A stretch of DNA of 64,000 nucleotides. Origin: Anaerolineae bacterium (GTDB taxonomy: Bacteria; Chloroflexota; Anaerolineae; Aggregatilineales; Phototrophicaceae). The translations under genes and the position numbers were made by a program. Where the stretch lies: the NCBI GenBank assembly GCA_022843745.1, contig JALHNB010000025.1:1-64000 (forward strand). Direction: 5' to 3'. How positions within the stretch are numbered: the stretch's first letter is position 1; each line of letters begins with the position of its first letter. The notes under the pieces were generated by a model. The model saw nothing but the letters and a program-made list of their open reading frames with translations, was not told where the DNA came from and searched no databases. Shown here piece by piece: positions 7,698 to 23,252 of the stretch.

Positions 7698-8948
7698 ATG
7701 GGTTTCGAGAAGATTGTAGTACCTCAGGAGGGGACGAAGATTACGTCCTCAAATGGTAAATTAAACGTACCGGATAATCCGATTGTCGGCTTCATCGAGG
7801 GCGATGGCATCGGATATGATATTATGACCGCCAGTAAGCGCATTTGGGATGCGGCTGTCAATGTGGCTTATAACGGGAATCGCAAGATTTCCTGGATGGA
7901 AATTTACTCCGGCGAAAAAGCGGCCAGTGTCTACGATGGCAATTATATGCCGGAAGAAACCTTTGACGCGATGCGCGAATTCCTTATCGGCATCAAAGGC
8001 CCGCTGACAACCCCCGTTGGCGGTGGTTTCCGCAGCCTGAATGTCACCCTGCGCCAGGTTCTCGATCTGTATAGCTGTGTGCGCCCTGTGCGCTGGTATC
8101 GCGGCGTTCCCAGCCCGTTGAAAGCGCCGGAAGAAGTCGATGTCGTTATTTTCCGCGAAAACACCGAAGATGTTTACGCTGGTATCGAATACGAATCCGG
8201 TACACCCGAAAATGAAAAACTGGCGCGTTTCCTGCGTGAAGAAATGGGCGCGACATTTTTCGAAGGTGCTGGCATTGGTATCAAGCCGATCAGCGCATTT
8301 GGCACAAAACGTCTGGTACGTGCTGCGATCCAGTACGCTATTGACCACAAACGCAAAAGCGTGACGCTGGTGCATAAGGGCAATATCCAGAAATTCACCG
8401 AAGGTGCGTTCATGAAGTGGGGCTACGAAGTCGCCGCGCAGGAATTCGCAGAACAGACCATTAGCTGGGACGATGTTGCTAGTAAGCACAATGGCAAAGT
8501 TCCCGAAGGTAAAATCCTCATTCAGGATACGATTGCCGACATTATCTTCCAGAAGATGATTCTGCGCCCATCCGAATTTGATGTTCTGGCGACACCTAAC
8601 CTCAATGGCGATTATCTGAGCGATGCCGTTGCAGCTGAAGTCGGCGGCGTGGGTATCGCTCCCGGCGCGAATATCGGTGATGCAATCGCGATGTTTGAAG
8701 CAACGCACGGCACAGCCCCGAAATACACCAATCTGGACAAAGTGAATCCCGGATCGCTGCTGTTCAGCGGCGTTATGCTGTTGGAACATCTGGGATGGGT
8801 TGAGGCAGCCGACCTCATCACCAAAGCCTATGAGAAGACGCTTGACCAGAAACTAGTGACTTATGACTTTGCTCGTCAGATGATCGGTGCGACTGAAGTC
8901 AGCACCAGCCAGTTTGCGACGACTGTCATCGATAACATGAGTCGCTAA
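7698..8948 (+). CDS. icd: NADP-dependent isocitrate dehydrogenase
   Basis: Homodimeric TCA-cycle enzyme converting isocitrate to 2-oxoglutarate, 416 residues, the same length as the E. coli enzyme. Visible motifs are the substrate loop [16 protein letters not shown], with the serine that is phosphorylated by AceK in enterobacteria, [17 protein letters not shown], and NADP determinants APKY and DKVNPGS plus a late TYDFARQM segment. The Lys-Tyr pair in APKY and the Tyr/Arg in TYDFARQM point to NADP rather than NAD. AAGGAG lies upstream of the ATG and a strong terminator follows, so it is probably a single-gene unit. Confidence 0.96.
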
Positions 8949-8960
8949 ACGATTTGTCTT

Positions 8961-8998
8961 AAAAAAGCAGCGACACCTACAGGTTCGCTGCTTTTTAT
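8961..8998 (+). terminator. rho-independent terminator of icd
   Basis: AAAAGCAGCGA pairs with TCGCTGCTTTT across a short loop, followed by a T-rich tract, directly after the icd stop codon. Confidence 0.9.
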
Positions 8999-9053
8999 TT
9001 CCCTCAATATTTAATTCATGATTCTTTCAGAGATGATTGTGACAGATTTCATA

Positions 9054-9059
9054 TATAAT
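9054..9059 (+). promoter_or_regulatory. possible -10 box for the response regulator/kinase pair
   Basis: TATAAT occurs 74 bases before the response regulator start. No convincing -35 hexamer is visible, so this is weak. Confidence 0.35.
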
Positions 9060-9133
9060 CAATTTAGTGCGAAGTAAACAAACCCTAATTTCTGGTAAGA
9101 TATACAATATGAAAACAGAAAAAGACACTCAAT

Positions 9134-9541
9134 ATGGCTGAAACGAACGCCAATGAAACCCACAAAGTTCTGATCGTTGATGATGAAGATTTGACGCGCG
9201 TCCTGCTCAGTCGGGTATTAGAGCGAATCAAAGTTAAAAACATCAGTATTTTGCTGGCGGAAGATGGTGAAGAAGCGCTGCGCATTGCTGGTACCGAGCG
9301 ACCTGATCTGGTTTTACTCGATCTTCTTCTGCCCAAGCTAAACGGTTATGACGTATGCCGTGAACTGCGCACCATCCCTGGCTATGAACCCCACATCATC
9401 ATTCTGACTGCGCGAGGCCAGGATACAGACCGTGATCATGCTCGCGAAATCGGCGCGGATGGATTTATGACGAAGCCGTTTAATCCTTCACGACTGATCG
9501 CTCAACTGAATGACCTCTGGCAAATTTCTGATTCGAAGTAA
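9134..9541 (+). CDS. single-domain response regulator (CheY-like)
   Basis: A 135-residue receiver domain without an output domain. The acidic pocket is LIVDDEDL (Asp16-17), the phosphoacceptor is Asp63 in LLDLLLPK, and the conserved lysine is in MTKPFNPS. It probably takes phosphate from the histidine kinase encoded 12 bases downstream and passes the signal by protein contact. The ribosome binding site is poor, but no better start is seen. Confidence 0.9.
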   Translation: MAETNANETHKVLIVDDEDLTRVLLSRVLERIKVKNISILLAEDGEEALRIAGTERPDLVLLDLLLPKLNGYDVCRELRTIPGYEPHIIILTARGQDTDRDHAREIGADGFMTKPFNPSRLIAQLNDLWQISDSK

Positions 9542-9553
9542 TGGGTTGGTCTT

Positions 9554-11086
9554 ATGAACAATATCTTTGCCCCTGCGAAAATTGACCTGAAAGATGTCCT
9601 GCCGACTGCTATGCTGGATCATTTGATCCCGCCCTTTGAAGCACTATTCGGCCTGGAAGGCATCGTCAGCGTTTGTGACAGCACAGGTCAGGTTTATTAT
9701 GGCCCTGAGACTGAGGATTGTGTGCGCCATCTTTATGCCCCAGTGATCGTCGATGGTCAGGAAATTGGCAGTTTAGGTTTATGCCACAATACAGGCGATT
9801 TCCGTGCGCAGAATGCGTTGGACTATCTGGGGCGTTCGCTCTCTGCGGTTGCTCTTGAAACCTGGCGGCAGCGTAAGTTGTCAGGCGAAGTGCTGGAGCG
9901 TTACGACGAATTAAACCTCATTTACGATATGGGGACGCTCATTTCCAGCCAGGGGCTTTCGCAGGATGAGATTGTGAAGGCGGTTTTAAACGAAACCAAC
10001 CGCATCGTGCGTGCTGAGGCAGGCGTAATTTACATCTATAGCAGCCGCAACCACGAATTAACCCCGGTGAGCTATTTTGGCCGTAGTGACGAATTATTCT
10101 GGATGGGGCGTACCCGCGAATTGGCGATGAGTACGCTCTATGCTTATGAAACCGCCCAGCTTTCGGATGGTGGCAAGGTGATCTGCGCACCGCTGCGTCA
10201 TGGTGAAGAACGTCTTGGTGCGCTGGTGTTGATGTATGACCGTCAGGATAAGACATTTAGCGCGAACGATGTTAATTTGCTGACCACGCTCACCTATAAC
10301 ACGGCGCTCTTTATCCAGGCTGCACACCTTTACGAACGGGTTGAACTGCGCAATAAAGAACTAATACAGGCGCTCAAAGACCTAAAATCGGCCAGAGATG
10401 AACTCAGCCGCGCTGAGCAGTTGAGTATTATCGGGCAGACGGTCAGTGGCCTGATTCATGATATGCGTAATCCGCTGAATATCGTGATGGGTTATGCCGG
10501 GCTGTTGCAAGAAGGCGGCCTGAGCGAAGATGAAAATCGCGAATATGCAACCCAGATTATCCAATATGTCAACACCTTCTCCTCGATGGCGCAGGAAATT
10601 CTGGATTATACGCAGTCGGATGATCGCATCGAACTCAAGCCTGTGTTGGTTTCAAACTATATGAAATATATTGAAGGGCTGTTGAATCCGCCGGGTCTCA
10701 AGCGTAATGTCGAGATTGCCATTAATGCGGATGCGGCCAGTGATTTCAAGATCAATATTGATACGCAGCGTTTTGCGCGTGTGTTTCAAAACCTCGCCAA
10801 TAATGCAGTTGATGCGATTGAAGAACACGGCGGCACACGCGTTGAAGTCCGCGTCGAGTCCGTCGATAAGAAATGGCTGCGTTTCGTGATTGAAGACGAT
10901 GGGCCAGGTGTACCAGAAGATATGGTCACGAAAATTTTTGAACCATTCGTAACTGGCAAGGCGCATGGCACAGGCCTGGGATTGGCAATCGTTGCCCGCA
11001 TGATCCTCAAGCATGGTGGAGCTATCCACTACGAAAATGCGCCGAATGGCGGTGCGCGCTTCGTGTTTACGCTGCCAAAGGTCTAA
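9554..11086 (+). CDS. soluble GAF-domain sensor histidine kinase
   Basis: 510 residues with no membrane segment. Order: an N-terminal sensory region (about 20-105) of folded, PAS/GAF-like appearance, a GAF domain (about 115-255), a coiled coil (about 258-290), a HisKA-type dimerisation helix with His302 in GLIHDMRNPL, and an HATPase domain with an N box NLANNAVDAIEE, a G1 box DDGPGVP and a G2 box GTGLGLAI. It should autophosphorylate on His302 and signal to the receiver protein encoded just upstream. The input is unknown and must be cytoplasmic. Confidence 0.93.
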   Translation: MNNIFAPAKIDLKDVLPTAMLDHLIPPFEALFGLEGIVSVCDSTGQVYYGPETEDCVRHLYAPVIVDGQEIGSLGLCHNTGDFRAQNALDYLGRSLSAVALETWRQRKLSGEVLERYDELNLIYDMGTLISSQGLSQDEIVKAVLNETNRIVRAEAGVIYIYSSRNHELTPVSYFGRSDELFWMGRTRELAMSTLYAYETAQLSDGGKVICAPLRHGEERLGALVLMYDRQDKTFSANDVNLLTTLTYNTALFIQAAHLYERVELRNKELIQALKDLKSARDELSRAEQLSIIGQTVSGLIHDMRNPLNIVMGYAGLLQEGGLSEDENREYATQIIQYVNTFSSMAQEILDYTQSDDRIELKPVLVSNYMKYIEGLLNPPGLKRNVEIAINADAASDFKINIDTQRFARVFQNLANNAVDAIEEHGGTRVEVRVESVDKKWLRFVIEDDGPGVPEDMVTKIFEPFVTGKAHGTGLGLAIVARMILKHGGAIHYENAPNGGARFVFTLPKV

Positions 11087-11175
11087 AGTATCGTCAAAAT
11101 GGGTTTACCCATAGCCCCGAAGCCTATTTCTGTACCGATATTTCGAACACCTTTTATGCGATTGCGTGATCGTGT

Positions 11176-11215
11176 AAAAACCTCACCTGCCCTTCCAGCA
11201 GCCATCGGAAGGGCA
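11176..11215 (-). terminator. hairpin terminator between convergent genes
   Basis: TGCCCTTCC and GGAAGGGCA form a perfect nine-base stem. On the minus strand it is followed by GGTGAGG and five Ts, fitting the end of the membrane protein gene at 11231. It may also stop transcription from the kinase operon. Confidence 0.65.
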
Positions 11216-11230
11216 TCGTAGCTGCCATTT

Positions 11231-12784
11231 TTAAGAAGTCGCCGGCTCGATGCCGAATGATGCCCCGTTCGCTACGAATCCTTCATCCGCTTTGACCGAT
11301 AAATAGTCCATCTCATAGCCATTTGAGAGACTGACTGTCTCCAGCGGCGTCGTACTCAGGTCGCGTAATTCAGGGTCGATGAGGACGACATTCCAATCTT
11401 TTCCGGCCTCTAAACCAAGCTGTTCGGCTGTCAACGGCTCGTCGGTATAATCCGATACAAGTACCTGACCAGCCTCGACCTCCCATTTGCTGCCGACACT
11501 AAAGCGTGATAATTGATATTCAGGCAGATAATACTGAATGTAGCGCCATGAAGTGGCAAGCAGTAGGGTGTTTTCCGGCGGGAAATTTTCGCGAACGGCA
11601 GCAATCTCATTCGCGAGACGCTGGTCATTTTCGCGCAATGTGGAATAAGTGAGCAGTTTGGGGCCGTCTGCGCCAAGCGGGTATTCTGGCCCCAGGATGA
11701 ATATTGCTGCGCCAACCAACGTGATCGCGGCGGCAGCGACCCGCAGCATTGCCGGACGTGATTGCAGCAGGCGATATAAACCTTCTGCACTGAGAAGGAC
11801 TAAAGCTGGGAGGAAGACAAAGACCAATCCCTGCTGACCCATGTGAATGATGATGTAAAAGGCTAGTGTCGGCGTAACCCACAGCGCTAAAAACCAGAAT
11901 TTGCGATCCCTCAGCCCGGAGCGCCAATTTTTAGCGATCTCTGGCAGCCAATAGAGCGCGGGTAACGCCGCTAACCCCCATGCGTAGAGCGTATATGGGA
12001 TTAATTTGCTGATGAGGTTACGCCGGAGGCCGGTCATTCCCGCGCCTCTCAGAAGCGACGTTGTATTCCAGAAATCTTCTGTAAAATTGCTCGATCCTTG
12101 CATATAAGTCGCGAATCCACCACTGAGCTGCATCAAGGGTATAAACCAGGCCAATGTGACGACCAGACCGATGACCCCAAAAGCGATGAACTTGACGATG
12201 CCAATGCGGTAAATGGCGAATAAAATCAGCGGGCCTAAAAACAGCAGGTCTTGCTGGCGGAATCCACCAACCAGCGCCAGAAAAACAGAAGTTAGTATCA
12301 ACCAACTCCAACGGTGATCGCCCTCCATGATGCGATAGAGCAGCCATGCACAAAAGATGATGCAGAACAAATCCATTGTATGGGGCAGTGCGATTTCGCT
12401 GTAAAACCAGACCAGCGGACTGGACATGATAAACAAGGCGGCGATCAATCCGGTTATTGGATTGAACATATCACGCCCCAGATAGAACATGGCGACGACA
12501 GCCAAACCGGAACTGATGATGCTGATAATCACCATCGTTGTCTGGTGATCGTTGGTAATGGTGTTGAGTGCTTGTGCCAGCACGATATAGACGATGTAGC
12601 CAGGGAATTGAGGCGCACCATTCAGCACGTCAAAATCCATCATCCCAAATGCCATGTTAGCCGAGTCCCAGTGATAAAGATACTGGCTCTGGAAGGGCAG
12701 ACGAGTGAGGATAGTCAGGATGAACAGTCCGAGCGCAATCCAGCGGGCATCAATTTTTAGTGTAGGCTTCGAGGCAGAGGTCAA
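11231..12784 (-). CDS. GT-C type membrane glycosyltransferase-like protein
   Basis: 517 residues with about ten hydrophobic segments and an extracytoplasmic C-terminal domain of about 130 residues. The first external loop contains YHWDSANMAFG, in the place where GT-C enzymes such as PMT/ArnT carry their catalytic acidic residue. Transfer of sugars from a lipid-linked donor is likely; the acceptor is unknown. The start is a TTG at 12784, directly after the TAA of the upstream gene, with AGGGAG nine bases before it. The two genes are therefore translationally coupled. Confidence 0.75.
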   Translation of the reverse strand: MTSASKPTLKIDARWIALGLFILTILTRLPFQSQYLYHWDSANMAFGMMDFDVLNGAPQFPGYIVYIVLAQALNTITNDHQTTMVIISIISSGLAVVAMFYLGRDMFNPITGLIAALFIMSSPLVWFYSEIALPHTMDLFCIIFCAWLLYRIMEGDHRWSWLILTSVFLALVGGFRQQDLLFLGPLILFAIYRIGIVKFIAFGVIGLVVTLAWFIPLMQLSGGFATYMQGSSNFTEDFWNTTSLLRGAGMTGLRRNLISKLIPYTLYAWGLAALPALYWLPEIAKNWRSGLRDRKFWFLALWVTPTLAFYIIIHMGQQGLVFVFLPALVLLSAEGLYRLLQSRPAMLRVAAAAITLVGAAIFILGPEYPLGADGPKLLTYSTLRENDQRLANEIAAVRENFPPENTLLLATSWRYIQYYLPEYQLSRFSVGSKWEVEAGQVLVSDYTDEPLTAEQLGLEAGKDWNVVLIDPELRDLSTTPLETVSLSNGYEMDYLSVKADEGFVANGASFGIEPATS

Positions 12785-14353
12785 TTAACGAATCTCCCTA
12801 GCTTGTTCCAACGTCTGTTTTTCTGGCTTGTCCAGGCGGGTCAGCAGGCGTAAAACGACGAATAAAATCAGCAAAACTGCTAAGACCAGCGGGATCAAAC
12901 TTGCGAATCCCGGCAGGTTGAGGATGAGGCCGCCGTAATTGCGGGCGATATCCCCTTGTGCCAGCAGTGGCAGCGCGTGATCGGTCAGCGGAAAGCTGGC
13001 GTTCATTTGCGCGACTGTAAAGGGGAAGCCAGAGACTTCCGGCCACGACTGCCCGGTAATCGTCAGTATGCCAACATGTAATATGGAAATCGCGATCAGC
13101 ATCCAGGCTAAAATCTGCCCCCACATGCGCTCAAATAACCAATTGAAAGCCGGAGTAGCAAGGAGCGCCATAAATGGCAGCATCGGGATCAGGTAACGCG
13201 GGCCAACGGTGAAGCCACCCCACCACATGATGCTGGCAGCATTATAAGTGAAAATTCCTGCTACAAAGAGGGCGACTACCAGAGCGAAATCCCGTTGATT
13301 TTTTCGCCATAACGAAACGAAGCCGGGGAACGCCAGCAGCAGCCAGGGCGACAGCAAGAAAATGCCGCGAATCGGGCTGAATGTAAGGCCATATAAACGT
13401 TCAAGGCTGGGGAAGGTCAGGCTGAGGAAGCCCGTTTGATGCTCCGTCTGCCAGTTGGTCGAATATTCATAACCTGCGGGCAGCGGCGATTGAAACGCGG
13501 CGTAATTGTAAGCAGCGAAAAGGATACCCAGCGGGATCGCTGCTAGAATAACGCGGTAAAGCGCGATTCTATTGGGCATTTTGATAAACGCCCAGATAAA
13601 AATGATCCCTAAGAACGGCACAACCGGATATTCAGTAATGGTTACGAGGCTAAATAAGACACCGACAACCCACAGCCAGTTTAAGCTGGCCTTTTCATGA
13701 ATGACCCGCCAGAGCAGGAAAAAGCCAATAAAAGCACCAAAGGCCGCCGTCTGATGTTGATAGAGCGCATTACTATATGGAAAAGCGATTGTTCCCAGCC
13801 CATAGGCCAGTGCCAGGATAAAAGCGTAACGATCTTTCGTTGTAAAACGCGCGGCGAACAAAAACACGGTCATTCCCAGAATAGCCGAAGGGATTGCCAT
13901 CGCAAAAAATGTTATGAATGTGAGTGCCATGCCTTGATAGACGGCTTCCGGTCGGATTCCTTCACCATCAGGATTCAGCGTATCGCTAATGTTTCCAAGC
14001 CCACTGCCACTCTCGATAAAACGCTGGATCGGAGGGATGGAAGCGATTCCTTTAAACACCATGTAGAAGGGCAGTGCAACCAGCGAAGGGCCAAGCGATT
14101 TATCAGTGTAATAGTGACCGTTGCAAGTATCGGTAGCTGCGTCATATGGGCCGGGGAAGCAGGCTTTATCGCCTGTGTTCTCATGATATGCGTCAATCGT
14201 CAGTACACCCTGGTCGCCGACGGCATAGACTAAATCAGCACGCGAATTGGCCCCCCAATCTGCCCATCGAGGCATGAAATAGCCGTAACAGACCGTCAGG
14301 ATCAAAAAGACGGTGATGGCGTAAGCGCGCCGTGAGGGTTGAAAATTCGCCAT
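12785..14353 (-). CDS. polytopic membrane protein, GT-C-like, coupled to the next gene
   Basis: About 520 residues with around ten hydrophobic segments. The first large loop holds RADLVYAVGDQGVLTIDAYH followed by two cysteines (DKACFPG and TDTCNGHYYTDK) and an STNW-type segment in a later loop. Topology and its tandem partner suggest a glycosyltransferase or other membrane enzyme working outside the cell on lipid-linked sugars; no specific family is certain. The ATG at 14353 has GAGG seven bases upstream. The ATG at 14365 has no site. It is co-transcribed with the following gene, whose start directly abuts this stop. Confidence 0.72.
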   Translation of the reverse strand: MANFQPSRRAYAITVFLILTVCYGYFMPRWADWGANSRADLVYAVGDQGVLTIDAYHENTGDKACFPGPYDAATDTCNGHYYTDKSLGPSLVALPFYMVFKGIASIPPIQRFIESGSGLGNISDTLNPDGEGIRPEAVYQGMALTFITFFAMAIPSAILGMTVFLFAARFTTKDRYAFILALAYGLGTIAFPYSNALYQHQTAAFGAFIGFFLLWRVIHEKASLNWLWVVGVLFSLVTITEYPVVPFLGIIFIWAFIKMPNRIALYRVILAAIPLGILFAAYNYAAFQSPLPAGYEYSTNWQTEHQTGFLSLTFPSLERLYGLTFSPIRGIFLLSPWLLLAFPGFVSLWRKNQRDFALVVALFVAGIFTYNAASIMWWGGFTVGPRYLIPMLPFMALLATPAFNWLFERMWGQILAWMLIAISILHVGILTITGQSWPEVSGFPFTVAQMNASFPLTDHALPLLAQGDIARNYGGLILNLPGFASLIPLVLAVLLILFVVLRLLTRLDKPEKQTLEQAREIR

Positions 14354-15201: not shown

Positions 15202-15846
15202 ATGAGTTCCTATCGGCGTGGAAGTGCTGGCCCGCCCGCATGGCTCATTTTTATCATAGCGGTCGCGTTGGTGTTTGGAGCCTATTACCTTTGGACAGGT
15301 TTTCAAAATTATCTGCGCACTGGTGGTCTGGGCGTGGTCGAGGCGACAGAACGCGCCAATCTGATCGCTACCTCTACGGCTGATCGTATGGCTTCTGTGC
15401 CTAGTCTTACCCCTCGCCCCTCTTTTACACCTGTACCGGAATGCCAGAATTTTATCGTGTCTGTCCCCAGCGCGATTGTGCGTGAAGCACCGACTTCGAA
15501 CGGTGCGATTGTGACTTCTCTTTCGCAAGGTACAACCGTTTGCGTGTTAGGTCAGGACGAGGGCAGCGAATGGTATACGATTGACAATAACCCTGAAACG
15601 CGCCGTCTGGAACTGGCTTATATGCACGAAACGGTTATCGAAGCGGTCAACCCCACACCGACGATCACCCGAACGCCCACGCCGCTGCCAACAGTCACAA
15701 CCTTGCCAAGCTTGACACCGAGCATCACGCCCAGCCCCGCGCCGACGGCTACTATTGACCCGGACGCTACCGATACGCCTTCCCCAACACCCACGCCAAC
15801 GGAAACGCCGACTTTAACGCCTACCGAGTCGTTCCAGAGCGCGTAA
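15202..15846 (+). CDS. membrane-anchored SH3-like protein with Pro/Thr-rich tail
   Basis: 214 residues: one N-terminal membrane segment (about 14-32), a short linker, an SH3b-like domain (about 82-148, VSVPSAIVREAPTSNGAIV and an EWYTI segment) and a tail of about 60 residues built from TPTP-type units. Bacterial SH3 domains of this sort usually bind wall or surface peptides; Pro/Thr tails of this kind are frequent in Chloroflexota surface proteins. AGGAG lies twelve bases before the ATG. Two cysteines (Glu-Cys-Gln and TVCVLG) could form a disulfide outside the cell. Confidence 0.75.
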   Translation: MSSYRRGSAGPPAWLIFIIAVALVFGAYYLWTGFQNYLRTGGLGVVEATERANLIATSTADRMASVPSLTPRPSFTPVPECQNFIVSVPSAIVREAPTSNGAIVTSLSQGTTVCVLGQDEGSEWYTIDNNPETRRLELAYMHETVIEAVNPTPTITRTPTPLPTVTTLPSLTPSITPSPAPTATIDPDATDTPSPTPTPTETPTLTPTESFQSA

Positions 15847-15964: not shown

Positions 15965-18187
15965 TTATGCTTCGTCAGTCTCAGGGGCGAGTACGAAGGC
16001 GCGGACGGCTCCAGCATCGTAACCGCTGAGGCGACCCCAGCCATCGGTTGCCATCGCTGCTGCGTACACGTTTTCCGAGAACCCGGCGATATTGCAGCCA
16101 CCGAGCAGATAATTGACGGTTTGCGTGCTGGAGAAGCTGCCTGCGCCAACTGGCACATCGCTCACACTGGGCGGGGTCAGCAGATTCACGCCACGATACA
16201 GGTGGAAATTGTGCTTCGCGAATCCATGCGGGTGCGAGGCCGTGTAGTTCATCTGCACCGAGCCGGGAGCATCCGGGTCATATTCCAGAACGCCGCAGTT
16301 ATCCCCGGCAGGCACACCATTGAGCGTTGGCGCGTCGATCCCGGCAGAGCAGACATTGTTATCGACGAAAATTGTGACGATCATGCTGTTGCCATCGACC
16401 AGGCCGAGCGTTGCCGCGTCTTCCGTCTCGATGTCACCGGAGAAATCAAGGCTATCGGGGATGCGATACTTGATGCCCTTCGCCGTGATGTCCACAGGTG
16501 CGCCGGTGTCGTCGAACAAATCGAGCTTGACCTGATATTTGCCGAACTCGGTGGTGGCGGGCAGCAGCGTATGAGTCGGGAACTTAGCGCTGGTCAGGTC
16601 TTCTGTCAGATCGGGGAAGCTCCATTGTCCGATAGGCGGCAGCGCGGGCGGAATCTCGAACAAATTCGCGGTTGTGCCGACCACCTGTGGGCCAAGCGGG
16701 AAGACTTCGAGAACGAGATCGTCGCCAACTTCGTGTGTGTAGTGACGGTGAACTTCCATCGTCAGCGGGATGAAAGCGCCGGACGTGCCTTTGCGATAGG
16801 ACATCTGATAGTATTTCACGTTCAGATCGTCGCGCAGGCTGTTGTCAAATTCCACGCGGAAGCGCAGTAACCCGCCGAATGGTGAACCGACTTGTGCGCC
16901 GGAACGAGCATCAGTTGCCAGACCATGATCGGCCTGCGTGCTGTCCTGCTGGACAAGCTGGATTGGATAGTTGCCGACAGCCATAAACAGCACCCAATTG
17001 TTCGGCGCAATAATTGGCTGGCAGGGTTGGCTCGTAAGCGCCCAGGGGTGAGTCGTGTGTAACTTCACTTCCGACCCACAGATGTAGTTCCAATGGGTAT
17101 GGCAGGCGATAGGTGTCGGCGCGTAAATCGTGGTCAGCGGGAACGGGAACGGCAGAATCCGCTGCTTGGCCTTGAAATACAGGTCGGGCTTATCGGGATT
17201 GCCACAGCCATTGAAGAAAAAGGTCTGGAAATGGCCGCAATCATCTGTCGTCGTCGTCGCCACAAGCTGCATGGTTACGAAGGTCGGATAGAAGTAGCAC
17301 AGTAACGGGCGAACCAGAACCATGTTGTCGATCAGTGATTGGCGGAAATGGAAGGTACTGGTCGTCCGTGCCAGGAATTGGAGCTGGCTTGAGCGCAGCG
17401 GATCATGCGGCGGATCGGGTTGTGGATTGAAAGCGACGCGCGATCCGGGCGGTTCTGGTTGAGGGTCAAAACCAACCAGCGAAGCAATATTCGTCTTGGG
17501 CGGCAGCGGTTGCGGGTTCAACGCCACGCGACCAAATCCAGGCGGCAGCGGTTGTGGGTTCAACGCCACGCGCGAAATGGGATCCGTGAGCACAGGGTCA
17601 AGAACAGGAAATGGGATGCCCCGGAACGGCGGGGGATCAGGCATCGGGATTGGGTTCAGGATGATCTCGCGCAGCCCTTCGATGACATAATCCGGCAGGC
17701 GCGGAATGAGAATATAGAAGGGATCGACTTCGTAAACTTCGACAATGGCGTTGTTTACGGGCATATCAACTTGTACGCCACCTGTTGTGACTGCTTTGAC
17801 CAGTCTACCCTGGACAAAACACAGGCTTTGCAGCCAGCACAGCCATGAATTTGGCAAAATCGTGAAGCTGGCGGCAGGTCGCAAATTATTCGCGTCGATT
17901 CGCACGAACTGTTCTTGTGCGCTCCGGCGGGTAAGGTCGGCGACGGTGATTTCCTTCGCGTCCACTTCTGGCCCGACGAGGACACGCACACGCTGGGCTG
18001 TGTTTTTGGCGGGCAATTGGAGCGAGGCGTTCCCTTTTTCGTCCAGGGGTTGGCTGGCAAGCAAGCGTCCGCCGGATGAAAAAGCGTAGGCCACAGTTTT
18101 CGGCACTTTTTCAGCGCCTTGTGATTCGAGCAGTTCGGCCCGAACGGTGAGGTTGACATATTTCTGTTCACGATCTTTGGTTGACAT
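15965..18187 (-). CDS. large protein with NPQPxPP repeats, function unknown
   Basis: 740 residues without signal peptide or membrane segment. Residues about 124-155 (VQGRLVKAV, NNAIVEVYEVD) and about 310-345 (TTTDDCGHFQTFFFNG) look like the two halves of a carboxypeptidase-regulatory or transthyretin-like beta sandwich. Between them is a proline-rich insertion carrying four copies of NPQPxPP or DPQPxPP (about 206-262). The rest is predicted beta-rich, with an aromatic, His- and Cys-containing middle part (PIACHTHWNYICG) and a C-terminal part with several Asp/Gly loops. I do not recognise the family. The motif recurs in unrelated bacterial hypothetical proteins as far as I recall. No gene in the surroundings suggests a partner. 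Confidence 0.75.
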   Translation of the reverse strand: MSTKDREQKYVNLTVRAELLESQGAEKVPKTVAYAFSSGGRLLASQPLDEKGNASLQLPAKNTAQRVRVLVGPEVDAKEITVADLTRRSAQEQFVRIDANNLRPAASFTILPNSWLCWLQSLCFVQGRLVKAVTTGGVQVDMPVNNAIVEVYEVDPFYILIPRLPDYVIEGLREIILNPIPMPDPPPFRGIPFPVLDPVLTDPISRVALNPQPLPPGFGRVALNPQPLPPKTNIASLVGFDPQPEPPGSRVAFNPQPDPPHDPLRSSQLQFLARTTSTFHFRQSLIDNMVLVRPLLCYFYPTFVTMQLVATTTTDDCGHFQTFFFNGCGNPDKPDLYFKAKQRILPFPFPLTTIYAPTPIACHTHWNYICGSEVKLHTTHPWALTSQPCQPIIAPNNWVLFMAVGNYPIQLVQQDSTQADHGLATDARSGAQVGSPFGGLLRFRVEFDNSLRDDLNVKYYQMSYRKGTSGAFIPLTMEVHRHYTHEVGDDLVLEVFPLGPQVVGTTANLFEIPPALPPIGQWSFPDLTEDLTSAKFPTHTLLPATTEFGKYQVKLDLFDDTGAPVDITAKGIKYRIPDSLDFSGDIETEDAATLGLVDGNSMIVTIFVDNNVCSAGIDAPTLNGVPAGDNCGVLEYDPDAPGSVQMNYTASHPHGFAKHNFHLYRGVNLLTPPSVSDVPVGAGSFSSTQTVNYLLGGCNIAGFSENVYAAAMATDGWGRLSGYDAGAVRAFVLAPETDEA
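17402..17572 (-). repeat. coding repeats for the NPQPxPP motif
   Basis: Four units within the preceding protein: ALNPQPLPPG, ALNPQPLPPK, GFDPQPEPPG and AFNPQPDPPH, the first two nearly identical at the DNA level. Units are separated by 3-14 residues, three of the four being preceded by Arg-Val. Confidence 0.88.
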
Positions 18188-18340: not shown

Positions 18341-19579
18341 TCATTCGACGACAGGCGAGACCGCGCGGCGGGACGAAAAACGCAGGGGTAAATGACCCAG
18401 TGTGGCAAGACCGACGATCAGCCGCAGCAAGGCACCACACATTAAGACCGTGACCAGTTTCATGCCTATATCCGCCATCGAACTGCCGATCATCGGGCCA
18501 ATGAACATGCCCACATAAACGATCTGAATGTAAACCGTTGTGTAGCGCGGCGAACCTTTCAATGGCGTTTTTTCAGCGAAAAAGCCGAAAAGTGCGACAT
18601 TTGTGGCCGTCCACGCAGCACCGCCGAGAGCCGCTGCCAGAAGAGTCAGCGGAAGCGAGGGCGCAATCGCGAAAACTAAAGCTGATAAACCTGTAACCAG
18701 CATTGAGGAGGTGATGAGTGCGCGGTTGCCGATGCGGGCGACAATTCGACTGGTAAAGCAGGCCATCAATGCCGCTGCTGCCAGTTCAGCCAGGCCGAAA
18801 TAAGCCATAAACTGCTCACTCGCGCCCAATTCATTCACCAGCCTCAGGGTAATAACCGGGGCGATGGAAAAATAAGCGATGTGTGTCGTAACCGTGATGA
18901 GGACAACCGTGATAAAACCGGGTGTTTGCCAGATGCGGCTCGTCGATTGGGTGGCAGTCGTGTGTTCGGCGGGGGGGACTTTAACCTGCATGGTATGCCA
19001 CCAACTGACCACCGCGAAGCCAAAACCGACGATAAACATCGCCTGATAATTGAAGGGAAATGGCACATTTTCCAGCCAGAAGCCAAAGGCGAGCGTCCCG
19101 AATCCTAATGTCAGATTCATCGCGAGTTGACGGCGGCTCAATAAAGAGGTCAGCATTTTTTCGCTCACCGCTTCACGCATCGTCACCATGAAGGCGACGG
19201 AACTGATGCCCTCAGCCAGCGCCGGGAGCACCACTGCGATGATAATCCAGATCGGTTGCCAATCTGTTGGCAGGAAAGGGGTGAACGCCAACAGCAAAAA
19301 AATAGTGCGCATTGCGAAAGAAGGCCAGCGTACCGCATCCAGTGTCGTCCGGTGACGGCGAATCCATCGCTGCGCCAGTGCTGCGGCGACAACGGCTGCA
19401 AATCCCGGCAGCGCCGCGATCAACCCAAGCTGAAAAGGTGTCGCACCGACGTGAATAGCATACACGGAGAGGAAGCGGGCGGTTGCCGGAGTCGCCAGAC
19501 CAAACCAGAAGGTGTTCTGGACGAGGTGATGAAAATTTCGCTGTTCGCTGCTGGATTCTACTTGCGCTGTTACAGTCAT
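18341..19579 (-). CDS. MFS transporter
   Basis: 412 residues, about twelve membrane segments in two halves with a central loop (about residues 195-215). Each half begins with the ARF...VGATPFQLG type of helix 1/2 seen in drug- or metabolite-exporting MFS proteins. It is a paralogue of the transporter at 21582-22895 (shared FSVYAI-like, GFWLE-PFP-NYQ-MF and RYTTVY segments). The ATG at 19579 has AAGG five bases upstream, which decides against the earlier in-frame start at 19624. The substrate is unknown. Confidence 0.85.
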   Translation of the reverse strand: MTVTAQVESSSEQRNFHHLVQNTFWFGLATPATARFLSVYAIHVGATPFQLGLIAALPGFAAVVAAALAQRWIRRHRTTLDAVRWPSFAMRTIFLLLAFTPFLPTDWQPIWIIIAVVLPALAEGISSVAFMVTMREAVSEKMLTSLLSRRQLAMNLTLGFGTLAFGFWLENVPFPFNYQAMFIVGFGFAVVSWWHTMQVKVPPAEHTTATQSTSRIWQTPGFITVVLITVTTHIAYFSIAPVITLRLVNELGASEQFMAYFGLAELAAAALMACFTSRIVARIGNRALITSSMLVTGLSALVFAIAPSLPLTLLAAALGGAAWTATNVALFGFFAEKTPLKGSPRYTTVYIQIVYVGMFIGPMIGSSMADIGMKLVTVLMCGALLRLIVGLATLGHLPLRFSSRRAVSPVVE

Positions 19580-19842
19580 TGACCTTCTCAGATTTTGGGC
19601 TACAACCACAAAAATAACCCACAAAATTGTGCGGGCTACCCTCAGTAATTGAAAACCACTTTATTACAATCGGTTTCTATCCATGATTCTAACCCCGAAA
19701 TCATCGCATCGTGACACCAACTTGGACTTAATGGTCTTCAAAGGCCTGAAGATTGGAAAATTGGGCTGATAAATATATCGGCATGAAAAGCATGATTCTG
19801 GTAAACTCTGTGACAGAAACTTTTGCTGAGAAAGGTAACACC

Positions 19843-21543
19843 ATGCTTTCTGACCTGGCAATCGCCCAACAAGCGACGCTTAAACATGTCCATGAGATGG
19901 CTGACCAGATGGGGCTTTCGCCCGATGATCTGGATATTTATGGCAGCCCTTATGTCGCAAAACTGCGCCTGGATGTGATGGATAAAATTAAAGATCGGCC
20001 CAATGCCCGTTATATCGACGTGACGGCGATCACACCCACACCGCTTGGTGAAGGGAAATCAACGACGACTGTCGGGCTTGGGCAGGCGATGAAACATATT
20101 GGGAAGCGCTCGATTGTGGCGCTGCGCCAGCCGTCGCAGGGGCCAACGTTCGGCATAAAAGGCGGCGCGGCGGGTGGTGGTTATTCGCAGGTTGTGCCGA
20201 TGGAGACGTTCAACCTGCATCTGACAGGTGATATTCACGCGGTCAGCGCGGCGAATAATTTGCTGGCTGCCATGATCGACAATCGTCTGATGCGCGGCAA
20301 CCCACTCAATATTGATGCCGACAGCATTACCTGGAAGCGTGTGATGGATGTGAATGATCGCGCTTTGCGGCAGATCATCGTCGGGCTGGGTGGAAGGGTC
20401 GAAGGCGGCGTGATGCGCGAAACTGGATTTGACATCGCCGTCGCCAGCGAAGTGATGGCGATTCTGGCATTGACGACCTCACTGGAAGATATGCGCGAAC
20501 GCTTCAAGCGTATCGTGATTGGCATGACTAACGATAAAAAGCCTGTGACGGCTGAAGAAATTGGTGCGGCGGGCGCGATGACCGTGCTGATGAAGGACGC
20601 GCTGCGCCCCAATCTTCTGCAAACAATCGAAAATACGCCCGCGCTGGTTCATGCTGGGCCGTTCGCCAATATTGCGCATGGCAACAGCAGTATTTTGGCT
20701 GATCTGATTGGCATCAAATGCACGGATTATTTGATTACGGAGTCGGGCTTTGGCGCGGATATTGGCGCGGAGAAATTTTTCAACGTGAAGTGCCGTTACA
20801 GCGGTTTGAAACCGGATGCGGCAGTATTGGTCGTCACGGTGCGAGCGCTGAAAACTCACAGTGGAAATTACAAGGTCGTGGCAGGCAAGCCGCTTCCCCC
20901 CGCGATGCTGGAAAAGAATGTTGGCGATGTCGAACGCGGTGCGGCTAATCTGATTAAGCAGATCGAAAATGTGAATCGACATGGTGTTACACCTGTGGTC
21001 GCGATTAACGTTTTTGAGAGCGATCATCCCGAAGAAATTGAAGCGATCAAACGTATCGCCGTCGAAGCCGGAGCATTGGGGGCATCCGTCGCGCGGCATC
21101 ATGCGCAGGGCGGCAAGGGCGCGATGGAACTGGCGGAAATGGTCGTCAGTGCTGCCGAAACGCCAAGCGAATTCAAATTTCTCTACGATCTCGACCAGCC
21201 GATTAAGGCGAAAATTGAGGCGATTGCCACGAAAATTTATGGCGCGGACGGCGTGAGCTATGAGGCCGCTGCTGAACGCCAAATTCGCGATTATGAAGCC
21301 AATGGATTTGGAAACCTGCCGATTTGCATGGCGAAAACGCATCTGAGTCTGAGTCACGACCCCACGCTGAAAGGTGCGCCGACAGGCTTCACCCTGCCGA
21401 TTCGCGAGGTGCGAGCCAGCGTAGGTGCGGGCTTTATCTACCCGCTGTGCGGCGAAATGCGTACTATGCCGGGACTCTCGGAACATCCGGCGGCGGAGAA
21501 TGTCGATATTGATGAGGATGGCAACATTGTAGGGCTGTTTTAA
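19843..21543 (+). CDS. fhs: formate--tetrahydrofolate ligase
   Basis: 566 residues, about the usual length of formyl-THF synthetases. It makes 10-formyl-THF from formate, THF and ATP, in one-carbon metabolism or a Wood-Ljungdahl-type methyl branch. The P-loop-like ATP site is TPTPLGEGKSTTT (about 65-75), and the adjacent QPSQGPTFGIKGGAAGGGYSQ segment is the family signature. The start at 19843 has AAAGG seven bases before the ATG; in-frame codons back to 19753 lack a site and family similarity. No other one-carbon gene is next to it. Confidence 0.95.
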   Translation: MLSDLAIAQQATLKHVHEMADQMGLSPDDLDIYGSPYVAKLRLDVMDKIKDRPNARYIDVTAITPTPLGEGKSTTTVGLGQAMKHIGKRSIVALRQPSQGPTFGIKGGAAGGGYSQVVPMETFNLHLTGDIHAVSAANNLLAAMIDNRLMRGNPLNIDADSITWKRVMDVNDRALRQIIVGLGGRVEGGVMRETGFDIAVASEVMAILALTTSLEDMRERFKRIVIGMTNDKKPVTAEEIGAAGAMTVLMKDALRPNLLQTIENTPALVHAGPFANIAHGNSSILADLIGIKCTDYLITESGFGADIGAEKFFNVKCRYSGLKPDAAVLVVTVRALKTHSGNYKVVAGKPLPPAMLEKNVGDVERGAANLIKQIENVNRHGVTPVVAINVFESDHPEEIEAIKRIAVEAGALGASVARHHAQGGKGAMELAEMVVSAAETPSEFKFLYDLDQPIKAKIEAIATKIYGADGVSYEAAAERQIRDYEANGFGNLPICMAKTHLSLSHDPTLKGAPTGFTLPIREVRASVGAGFIYPLCGEMRTMPGLSEHPAAENVDIDEDGNIVGLF

Positions 21544-21551
21544 GAAGTTTG

Positions 21552-21620
21552 AACCATAGAGTCACGAAGAACACAGAGATTTTAGATATTTCTCTGTGAC
21601 CGTTGTGTCTCTGTGGTTTT
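21552..21620. repeat. dispersed CACAGAG palindrome, copy A
   Basis: An imperfect inverted repeat of about 28 bases per arm: left arm AACCATAGAGTCACGAAG then AACACAGAGA, right arm TCTCTGTGACC then TTGTGTCTCTGTGGTT. It lies between fhs and the convergent MFS gene and could act as a two-way terminator. The stop codon and last 13 codons of the MFS gene lie inside it. See copies at 44386 and 35591. Confidence 0.85.
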
Positions 21621-22895
21621 TGTATTGATCTGGCGCAGATTTGGGAAGGCGTTGAGGATGCGGCGGGCAGGGGTATAGAGCAGCGCATCCATGTTGTAAA
21701 TCATCAGGCCAGCCACTAGGCGCATTGCCGCGCCAATCACCATCACCAGCATCAGGTTGACACCCGCGTTGGCGAGGTTGCTGCCGACCATTGGGCCGAT
21801 AAAGGCGGCAATCCAGACCAACTGATTGTAAACGGTGGTGTAGCGAGTCATATCCTGCGATGCCACATCTTTGGTCGCGTCAATGAACAGGCCGTACATG
21901 GCAATTGCACCAGCGATCCAGGCCGCGCCGGAAACGGCGCCAGCGACGAGCACGACGGTGAGATTATGGGTCAGGGCCATCGTTAGCGCGGCTACACCTG
22001 TCCAAAAGACGGCGACTGCAATCACTTTGCGAGTGCCGAATCTGCGGATGATGCGATCTGTAAACAGGCAGATTGTCGCGCTGGCGACAATTTCAGCAAT
22101 GCCGTAGATCGCCATGAAACCTTCGTTTGCCCCCATATTTTTCACCAGGTGCAGGGGAATGATGGATGCCACGGCAAGGAAACCGATATGCGCGACAACG
22201 ACGACCAGAACCGCATTCATGAAACCCGGAGAGCGCAGCGGCGTAGCAGTGGACTTGACCACTGTCGATTGAACTGCCGTCGAGGTCGCTGGCAGCTTGA
22301 CGTTCATCACACAGCAATGGCTGATAAGTGCCATGACGAATGCTAACAAAAACATGACCTGATAATTCATCGGGAAAGGCGCTTGCTCCAGCCAGAACCC
22401 GAAGATCAACGCGCCAATGCCTGTCGTCACATTCATCCATAACATGCGTTTACTGGCGAGTGGAGTTTGGCGCTCGTGTGGGATAGCATCGCGCATCATG
22501 CTCACAAAAATTGTGGATGAGAGTCCCTGGGGGATCGCTGGCAAGACAACCGAAAAAATTAACCATAGGGGCTGGAAGCGCAGCGGAAAAAGCGGCGTGA
22601 GCGCAGGCAGCAAAAAAGTCAGCCGGAAACCCATCGATGGCAGGAAATAGGAGCGCATCGGGTCTTTAAAGCGATTACGCCACCACGTACTGACGGTAGT
22701 CGAGAGCAGCAAGAACATGAACGGTAGGGAGGTCATCCAGCCGAGTTCAATCGCCGTCGCGCCAACGCGAATCGCGTAAACGGAAAAGAAACGACTTGTG
22801 GCAGCAAGCCCGATACCAAACCAGGCTACTTCAATCACATAGTTGCGGAAGTTGACGTTTTCGGCCTGGGGTGTTAACGATGATGTCGTATTCAA
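21582..22895 (-). CDS. MFS transporter, paralogue of the one at 18341
   Basis: About 437 residues and twelve membrane segments, with the same signature segments as the 18341-19579 transporter: FSVYAIRVGATAIELGWM, GFWLEQAPFPMNYQ and TRYTTVYNQLVW. The central cytoplasmic loop is near residues 205-225. The likely start is TTG at 22895 with GAGG five bases upstream; a GTG at 22913 has no site. The C-terminus (TKTTETQRSQRNI) is coded by the palindromic repeat at 21552-21620. The original reading frame presumably ended earlier. The substrate is unknown. Confidence 0.82.
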   Translation of the reverse strand: MNTTSSLTPQAENVNFRNYVIEVAWFGIGLAATSRFFSVYAIRVGATAIELGWMTSLPFMFLLLSTTVSTWWRNRFKDPMRSYFLPSMGFRLTFLLPALTPLFPLRFQPLWLIFSVVLPAIPQGLSSTIFVSMMRDAIPHERQTPLASKRMLWMNVTTGIGALIFGFWLEQAPFPMNYQVMFLLAFVMALISHCCVMNVKLPATSTAVQSTVVKSTATPLRSPGFMNAVLVVVVAHIGFLAVASIIPLHLVKNMGANEGFMAIYGIAEIVASATICLFTDRIIRRFGTRKVIAVAVFWTGVAALTMALTHNLTVVLVAGAVSGAAWIAGAIAMYGLFIDATKDVASQDMTRYTTVYNQLVWIAAFIGPMVGSNLANAGVNLMLVMVIGAAMRLVAGLMIYNMDALLYTPARRILNAFPNLRQINTKTTETQRSQRNI

Positions 22896-23252
22896 GTTGA
22901 CCTCGAAGTACACGCCGCATCAGCAGCGAACTTATGAACGATTGTCTCCATACAAACAGCACGAGCCACTAACCTAACAGCGACCCGCAAAATAACACTC
23001 TTAAGGAAGAGTTGATTTAGTTATCTTAATTTAATACTATTTGATGGATTGGATTATTGAGAATTTTATCACTAACCCCCAATTTTGTGTGAAGCTAATC
23101 TGACGATTTCCCTACGTTTCATGGAAAATGAGTCATATGCCTCTTACCCTCATCTTTAGTGTAAAACCAAGAATAGGAATCGCAATAACCATGTGATCCA
23201 AGTTGGCTGAATGGTTATATATGGTCTGCATCTGGGGGCTTGGTCAGGCTGT

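Follow-up and report, generated by a model that had tools for sequence, protein, structure and literature searches.

The gene at 15965-18187 of the window, by which we mean the whole 64,000-nucleotide stretch of DNA analysed here, encodes a 740-residue protein in which four short proline-rich units of the NPQPxPP type lie within an apparently interrupted beta domain, and it raises the question of what kind of protein carries such peptides and what they might do there. The reading frame had been reported in the first-pass annotation without its strand; it is indeed present, lies on the minus strand and exists in one copy in its own 8 Mb genome.

An undescribed family of patchy distribution

The 740-residue protein is a member of an undescribed bacterial protein family that is patchily spread. 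Chloroflexota, Pseudomonadota, Acidobacteriota and Gemmatimonadota together yielded 25 further members at 23-47% identity. Of these, 17 are full-length, at about 42% identity, and were retrieved from other genomes with peptide patterns lying outside the motif region; the other eight are at 23-45%. Close relatives align over the whole length at 42-47% identity, distant ones at 23-45%. Among the other sampled genomes of the same class, 8 of 297 carry a relative, and these together with the 17 relatives from other genomes establish the frame as a real gene. A clear member was present in 2 of 139 Acidobacteriota genomes (the seed genome included) and a remote member in two more, whilst the family was absent from the plasmids, phages and viral contigs searched. 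Neither Pfam nor NCBIfam nor the solved structures gave a match for the window protein, none of the family members has a Pfam match above the cut-off, and searches of Pfam, NCBIfam, PHROGs and the PDB with family members and spliced domains returned nothing usable.

The family tree joins the phyla patchily: the window protein pairs with a single member of its class, away from a relative of the same order, and this pair neighbours a clade of Pseudomonadota, Acidobacteriota, Gemmatimonadota and one Dehalococcoidia member. The patchiness of the tree suggests that the family has likely undergone horizontal transfer. Two loci, from a Janthinobacterium genome and a Burkholderiales MAG, contain frame breaks within the gene (L015, 8564-8568; L003, 9701-9705), representing either a pseudogene or a sequencing error, and were counted as fragments only.

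The search for conserved neighbours that had been proposed came out negative, with no gene common across lineages when the neighbourhoods of relatives were compared. Acetobacteraceae relatives share a nearby N-formylglutamate amidohydrolase and an SLT transglycosylase, and Massilia relatives an unnamed 244-residue protein, each in that lineage only; both contexts look inherited within their lineage. As neighbourhoods differ between lineages, context yields no function. The window gene is convergent with that of an SH3_3-domain protein (15202-15846, plus strand; N-terminal membrane-like segment, Pro/Thr-rich tail), and upstream of it, also on the minus strand, lies an MFS transporter gene. A formate-tetrahydrofolate-ligase-like gene at 19783-21543, named from inspection of its sequence, has an MFS transporter gene on either side (18341-19579 and 21582-22913, minus strand), both belonging to a single sequence cluster.

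A beta domain split by an insert with a predicted disordered loop

The 740-residue protein has no signal peptide, as had been noted, and no membrane segment: averaged over 19 residues, Kyte-Doolittle hydropathy peaks at 0.02 within the first 40 residues and at 1.26 in the protein as a whole. Its cysteines, to which attention had also been drawn, number 11, of which seven (C297, C317, C362, C370, C389, C631 and C698) do not vary among close relatives and C123 hardly does; most of them are not conserved in distant subfamilies. Modelling the full-length protein gave a poor result overall (pLDDT 59), in which a beta domain is predicted at residues 10-110, strands at 122-154 as well as at 306-342, and disorder at about 181-265. 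The N-terminal beta-sandwich domain (residues 10-110; 17858-18160, minus strand; block pLDDT mostly 70-86) is weakly fimbrillin/Mfa2-like, and a predicted C-terminal beta-rich region (residues 346-740; 15968-17152, minus strand) is of mixed confidence, with pLDDT of 24-88 by block. A Foldseek search with the whole model matched 3gf8 (DUF1812) with an E-value of 6.7e-4, for which the aligned range is not given, and Pfam Mfa2 (PF08842) scored below its cut-off in 2 of 19 members (best E 0.00098; 14.7 bits for one member against a gathering cut-off of 21.2).

This resemblance to fimbrillin and pilin domains would fit an adhesin or effector that leaves the cell by a non-classical route, such as a VgrG-linked cargo, with the loop as a surface-exposed variable segment. 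In Massilia rubra, a distant second family member (L105, 1774-12177) lies between two genes with VgrG-like N-termini, beside a DUF3540 gene. However, this context was found in one genome only and in the opposite orientation to the nearest such gene, the VgrG calls come from sequence inspection, most members have unrelated neighbours, and the 740-residue protein has no signal peptide, so that an adhesin or effector appears highly improbable.

The split of a carboxypeptidase-regulatory-like beta domain, proposed in the first-pass annotation, can be assessed both from models and by comparison. The first half of this CarboxypepD_reg/transthyretin-like domain (residues 122-155; 17723-17824, minus strand) has predicted strands at 122-135, 138-144 and 148-154 with high pLDDT, and the second half (residues 303-345; 17153-17281, minus strand) has strands at 305-313, 319-325 and 335-343 and contains TDxxGxF and DLYF motifs. 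Between them lies an insert (residues 156-305; 17273-17722, minus strand) in which helices flank a proline-rich disordered loop with pLDDT below 50 at residues 186-261. Structure prediction had been suggested for residues 120-350; for residues 112-382, AlphaFold returned confident strands on both sides (pLDDT mostly above 75) of the disordered segment, with a pTM of 0.62 and about 76 of 271 residues disordered. The packing of the halves is read from this pTM: it exceeds the value expected for the larger half alone (about 121 of 271 residues), suggesting that the two halves are placed together, although only the best of the five models was good (mean pLDDT 69 against 48-56) and the other four were poor. 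The split domain gave no significant fold match in the PDB.

The comparative evidence is stronger than the model. A remote Acidobacteriota relative, L167, which matches the family profile with E = 6.7e-10 and has the same N-terminal arrangement, lacks the insert: the first half and the TDxxGxF motif of the second align with its uninterrupted domain, GQIVCPDGRPVPGAKVCAYDVDPWWWWSSRQQVGCDTTDATGAFEI. This domain has a match to CarboxypepD_reg (PF13620) below the cut-off (E = 5.5e-5; 23.9 against a cut-off of 32.3). A profile in which the two family halves were joined and the insert removed scored 24.3 bits on the L167 domain, where the best of 2,912 scored shuffles reached 10.0, whilst the profiles of the individual halves scored -3.2 and -14.7 on the same segment. 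Since the spliced profile matches the domain and the halves alone do not, the split-domain reading is supported, with both halves homologous to one continuous CarboxypepD_reg-like domain. Neither the window protein nor its spliced domain matches PF13620 at the gathering cut-off, and the protein is not formally a member. In another remote relative (L166), the insert is proline-rich and without the motif.

Four units in two coupled dialects

As had been described, the loop contains four units, of which two are near-identical at the DNA level. All lie on the minus strand: VALNPQPLPP twice (NPQPLPP at 17540-17560 and, as its tandem copy, at 17498-17518), VGFDPQPEPP (DPQPEPP, 17447-17467) and VAFNPQPDPP (NPQPDPP, 17408-17428). 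The first two sit within repeats of the form CGCGTGGCGTTGAACCC[A/G]CAACCGCTGCCGCC that differ at one base, and a similar tandem pair is present in L114. The Asn-Pro-Gln-Pro core is kept within the 740-residue gene while its codons vary (AACCCACAACCG, AACCCGCAACCG, AATCCACAACCC), and this variation at synonymous positions points to selection on the peptide. A mobile element acting at the DNA level was rejected as the source of the units because codons differ between copies and between genomes. The 8 Mb genome as a whole has six matches to a degenerate codon pattern for [ND]PQPxPP, four of them in this gene, a concentration beyond what chance would give.

In the family, 24 units occur in the 21 linkers that have clear anchors, whereas shuffles that preserve composition contain 0.0055 on average and never more than one. 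Of the 25 relatives, which were retrieved independently of the motif, 18 have one or more copies of [ND]PQPxPP, including members of both of the deepest tree branches, although the linker around the units cannot be aligned; the earlier suggestion of a conserved, recognition-type motif is supported at the level of the protein. The units show the traits of a short linear motif, a conserved short sequence in a segment predicted to be disordered and with variable flanks. The remaining 7 of 25 relatives have a proline-rich linker from which the motif is missing, and it is therefore not needed for the fold, nor can it be something without which the protein does not manage.

The units come in two coupled dialects, a new observation that the first-pass annotation did not make: xLNPQPLPP (the L dialect, to which the first two units of the window protein belong) and xF[ND]PQP[DE]PP (the F dialect, that of the third and fourth), often side by side. 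In the 31 family units that have L or F just ahead of the motif, a Leu before the N/D goes with Leu at the x position of the motif in 14 of 14 cases and a Phe with Asp or Glu in 17 of 17 (14:0 against 0:17; Fisher p = 3.8e-9, with no correction for shared ancestry). Both dialects are found within single proteins of Chloroflexota, Burkholderiales, Acidobacteriota and Gemmatimonadota, in either order, and thus are not simply a marker of clade. We regard the family and the coupling of the dialects as solid.

The main rival to a function of the units in recognition is that the linker is a passive proline-rich spacer, in which slippage or tandem duplication would multiply the units and polyproline II-forming sequence would be tolerated. 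The loop is indeed proline-rich, predicted to be disordered and variable in length, the window and L114 both contain near-identical tandem DNA copies, and the seven motif-free linkers fit a spacer. What it leaves unexplained are the fixed N and Q, the coupling of the dialects and the recurrence of the same nonapeptide as an invariant block in an unrelated family, and we judge a mere spacer possible yet rather unlikely.

Recurrence of the motif and a candidate docking role

The first-pass annotation had mentioned PQPxPP units in unrelated bacterial proteins, which is partly supported: particular protein groups give convincing cases, but the bare motif is close to background. In 301 Chloroflexota genomes, the bare 7-mer gave 19 matches outside the window against 14 for reversed-pattern controls, and the looser [LF][ND]PQPxPP was at background level in genome scans; being near chance frequency, such counts were rejected as a sign of a widespread motif. 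The strict pattern [AG][LF]NPQPxPP gave no control matches in 448 genomes and 10 matches outside the two seed genes: two in another family member, four in an unrelated family of about 150 residues, one at the C-terminus of a secreted-looking protein (L113), one at the N-terminus of a transporter (L112) and two that look incidental. In the ~150-residue family (L107, L108, L109, L116 and L066; also L097 and L118-L121), which occurs in Pseudomonadota and Acidobacteriota with a Dehalococcoidia member, ALNPQPLPP, of the L dialect, is the only invariant block of nine columns in proteins otherwise 31-52% identical; the one member scanned had no Pfam match. These proteins (L097, L118-L121) carry a second proline-rich block besides ALNPQPLPP. 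A related peptide, LDPQPIPP, recurs in a separate conserved context, in an apparent single protein family from about ten genomes of one Chloroflexota family (f68; L138-L147, L150). A literature search for the motif gave nothing relevant.

The motif also appears in peptide precursors. NPQPLPP directly follows the GG site in two Nif11-leader precursors (L042) of one Chloroflexota genome, a third neighbour having NPQPLTP, and in a Burkholderiales genome a GG-leader peptide with VALNPQPLPPK adjoins a C39 peptidase/ABC exporter and an HlyD protein. By analogy with such precursors of peptide natural products, the units could be sites on which a putative enzyme acts, either modifying Gln or Pro or cutting the chain, for which the position after GG and the adjoining exporter would speak. 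Against this, no modifying enzyme is conserved beside the 740-residue gene and its product has no leader, and this reading, which we place next after the spacer, seems improbable. Five Nif11-type small proteins, of which two have NPQPLPP and one NPQPLTP after GG, are arrayed in a Chloroflexota genome (L091, 7427-9557, minus strand) with transposase-like genes and no obvious modification enzyme nearby, and the L092 locus (8373-13399, plus strand) resembles a bacteriocin export cluster, with a Crp-type regulator, a 75-residue GG-leader peptide ending in VALNPQPLPPKSLAAFEIQM, HlyD and the C39 peptidase ABC exporter.

The most likely reading, which we put forward tentatively, is a soluble scaffold of multiple beta-sandwiches that displays docking peptides for a putative partner. 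The protein would be made without a Sec signal, and in its second, CarboxypepD_reg/transthyretin-like domain a connection between strands would have grown into the insert of about 150 residues. The disordered, proline-rich middle of this insert would display one to four peptides, [AGS]-L-N-P-Q-P-L-P-P or [GA]-F-[ND]-P-Q-P-[DE]-P-P, acting as short linear motifs in a probably extended or polyproline-II form, with the folded domains as scaffold and the number of units altered by local tandem duplication. We infer the docking function, the polyproline-II conformation, the existence of a partner and the cellular location. The motif in flexible termini (L113, L112 and, after GG, L042) and the invariance of the nonapeptide in an unrelated family argue for docking; the seven motif-free relatives, the near-chance frequency of the bare 7-mer, the want of a partner from neighbours, the single good model out of five and the lack of a PDB fold match for the split domain argue against it. 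Docking of the units to the neighbouring SH3_3 protein was not adopted, since bacterial SH3_3 domains are not known to bind proline peptides and its gene is convergent.

More broadly, [AGS][LF][ND]PQP[L/D/E]PP could be a bacterial short linear motif in two coupled dialects, used by unrelated proteins (the 740-residue scaffold, the ~150-residue family, secreted and exported peptides) and recognised by a common putative binding module or modifying enzyme. We consider this doubtful, and a reader shared across unrelated proteins is speculative. Bacterial counterparts of eukaryotic docking-peptide systems are seldom recognised; if the idea is true, a motif in two strictly coupled versions that recurs in unrelated proteins would offer the peptide itself as bait for an undescribed recognition module. 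Even a modest reading leaves a sizeable, conserved and unannotated family with a clear beta-sandwich interrupted by a loop that displays peptides.

Compared with known systems, the protein shares with CarboxypepD_reg (PF13620) and transthyretin-like domains the pattern G-x-V ... A-x-V-x-x-x-x-V-D ... T-x-D-x-x-G-x-F, but differs in its insert of displayed peptides. Its N-terminal beta domain is weakly similar to Mfa2/FimB anchor and fimbrillin N-terminal domains (PF08842, DUF1812), although the lipoprotein or Sec signal and the Bacteroidota fimbrial context of those proteins are missing. Some Nif11-leader RiPP precursors (TIGR03798) share LNPQPLPP immediately after GG, whereas the 740-residue protein has no NCBIfam match that would indicate a Nif11 leader with a GG site, and its gene is not accompanied by RiPP enzymes. 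The ~150-residue family showed neither beta-sandwich motifs nor sequence that could be aligned with the 740-residue protein; the two have the same nonapeptide, ALNPQPLPP, which in that family is invariant.
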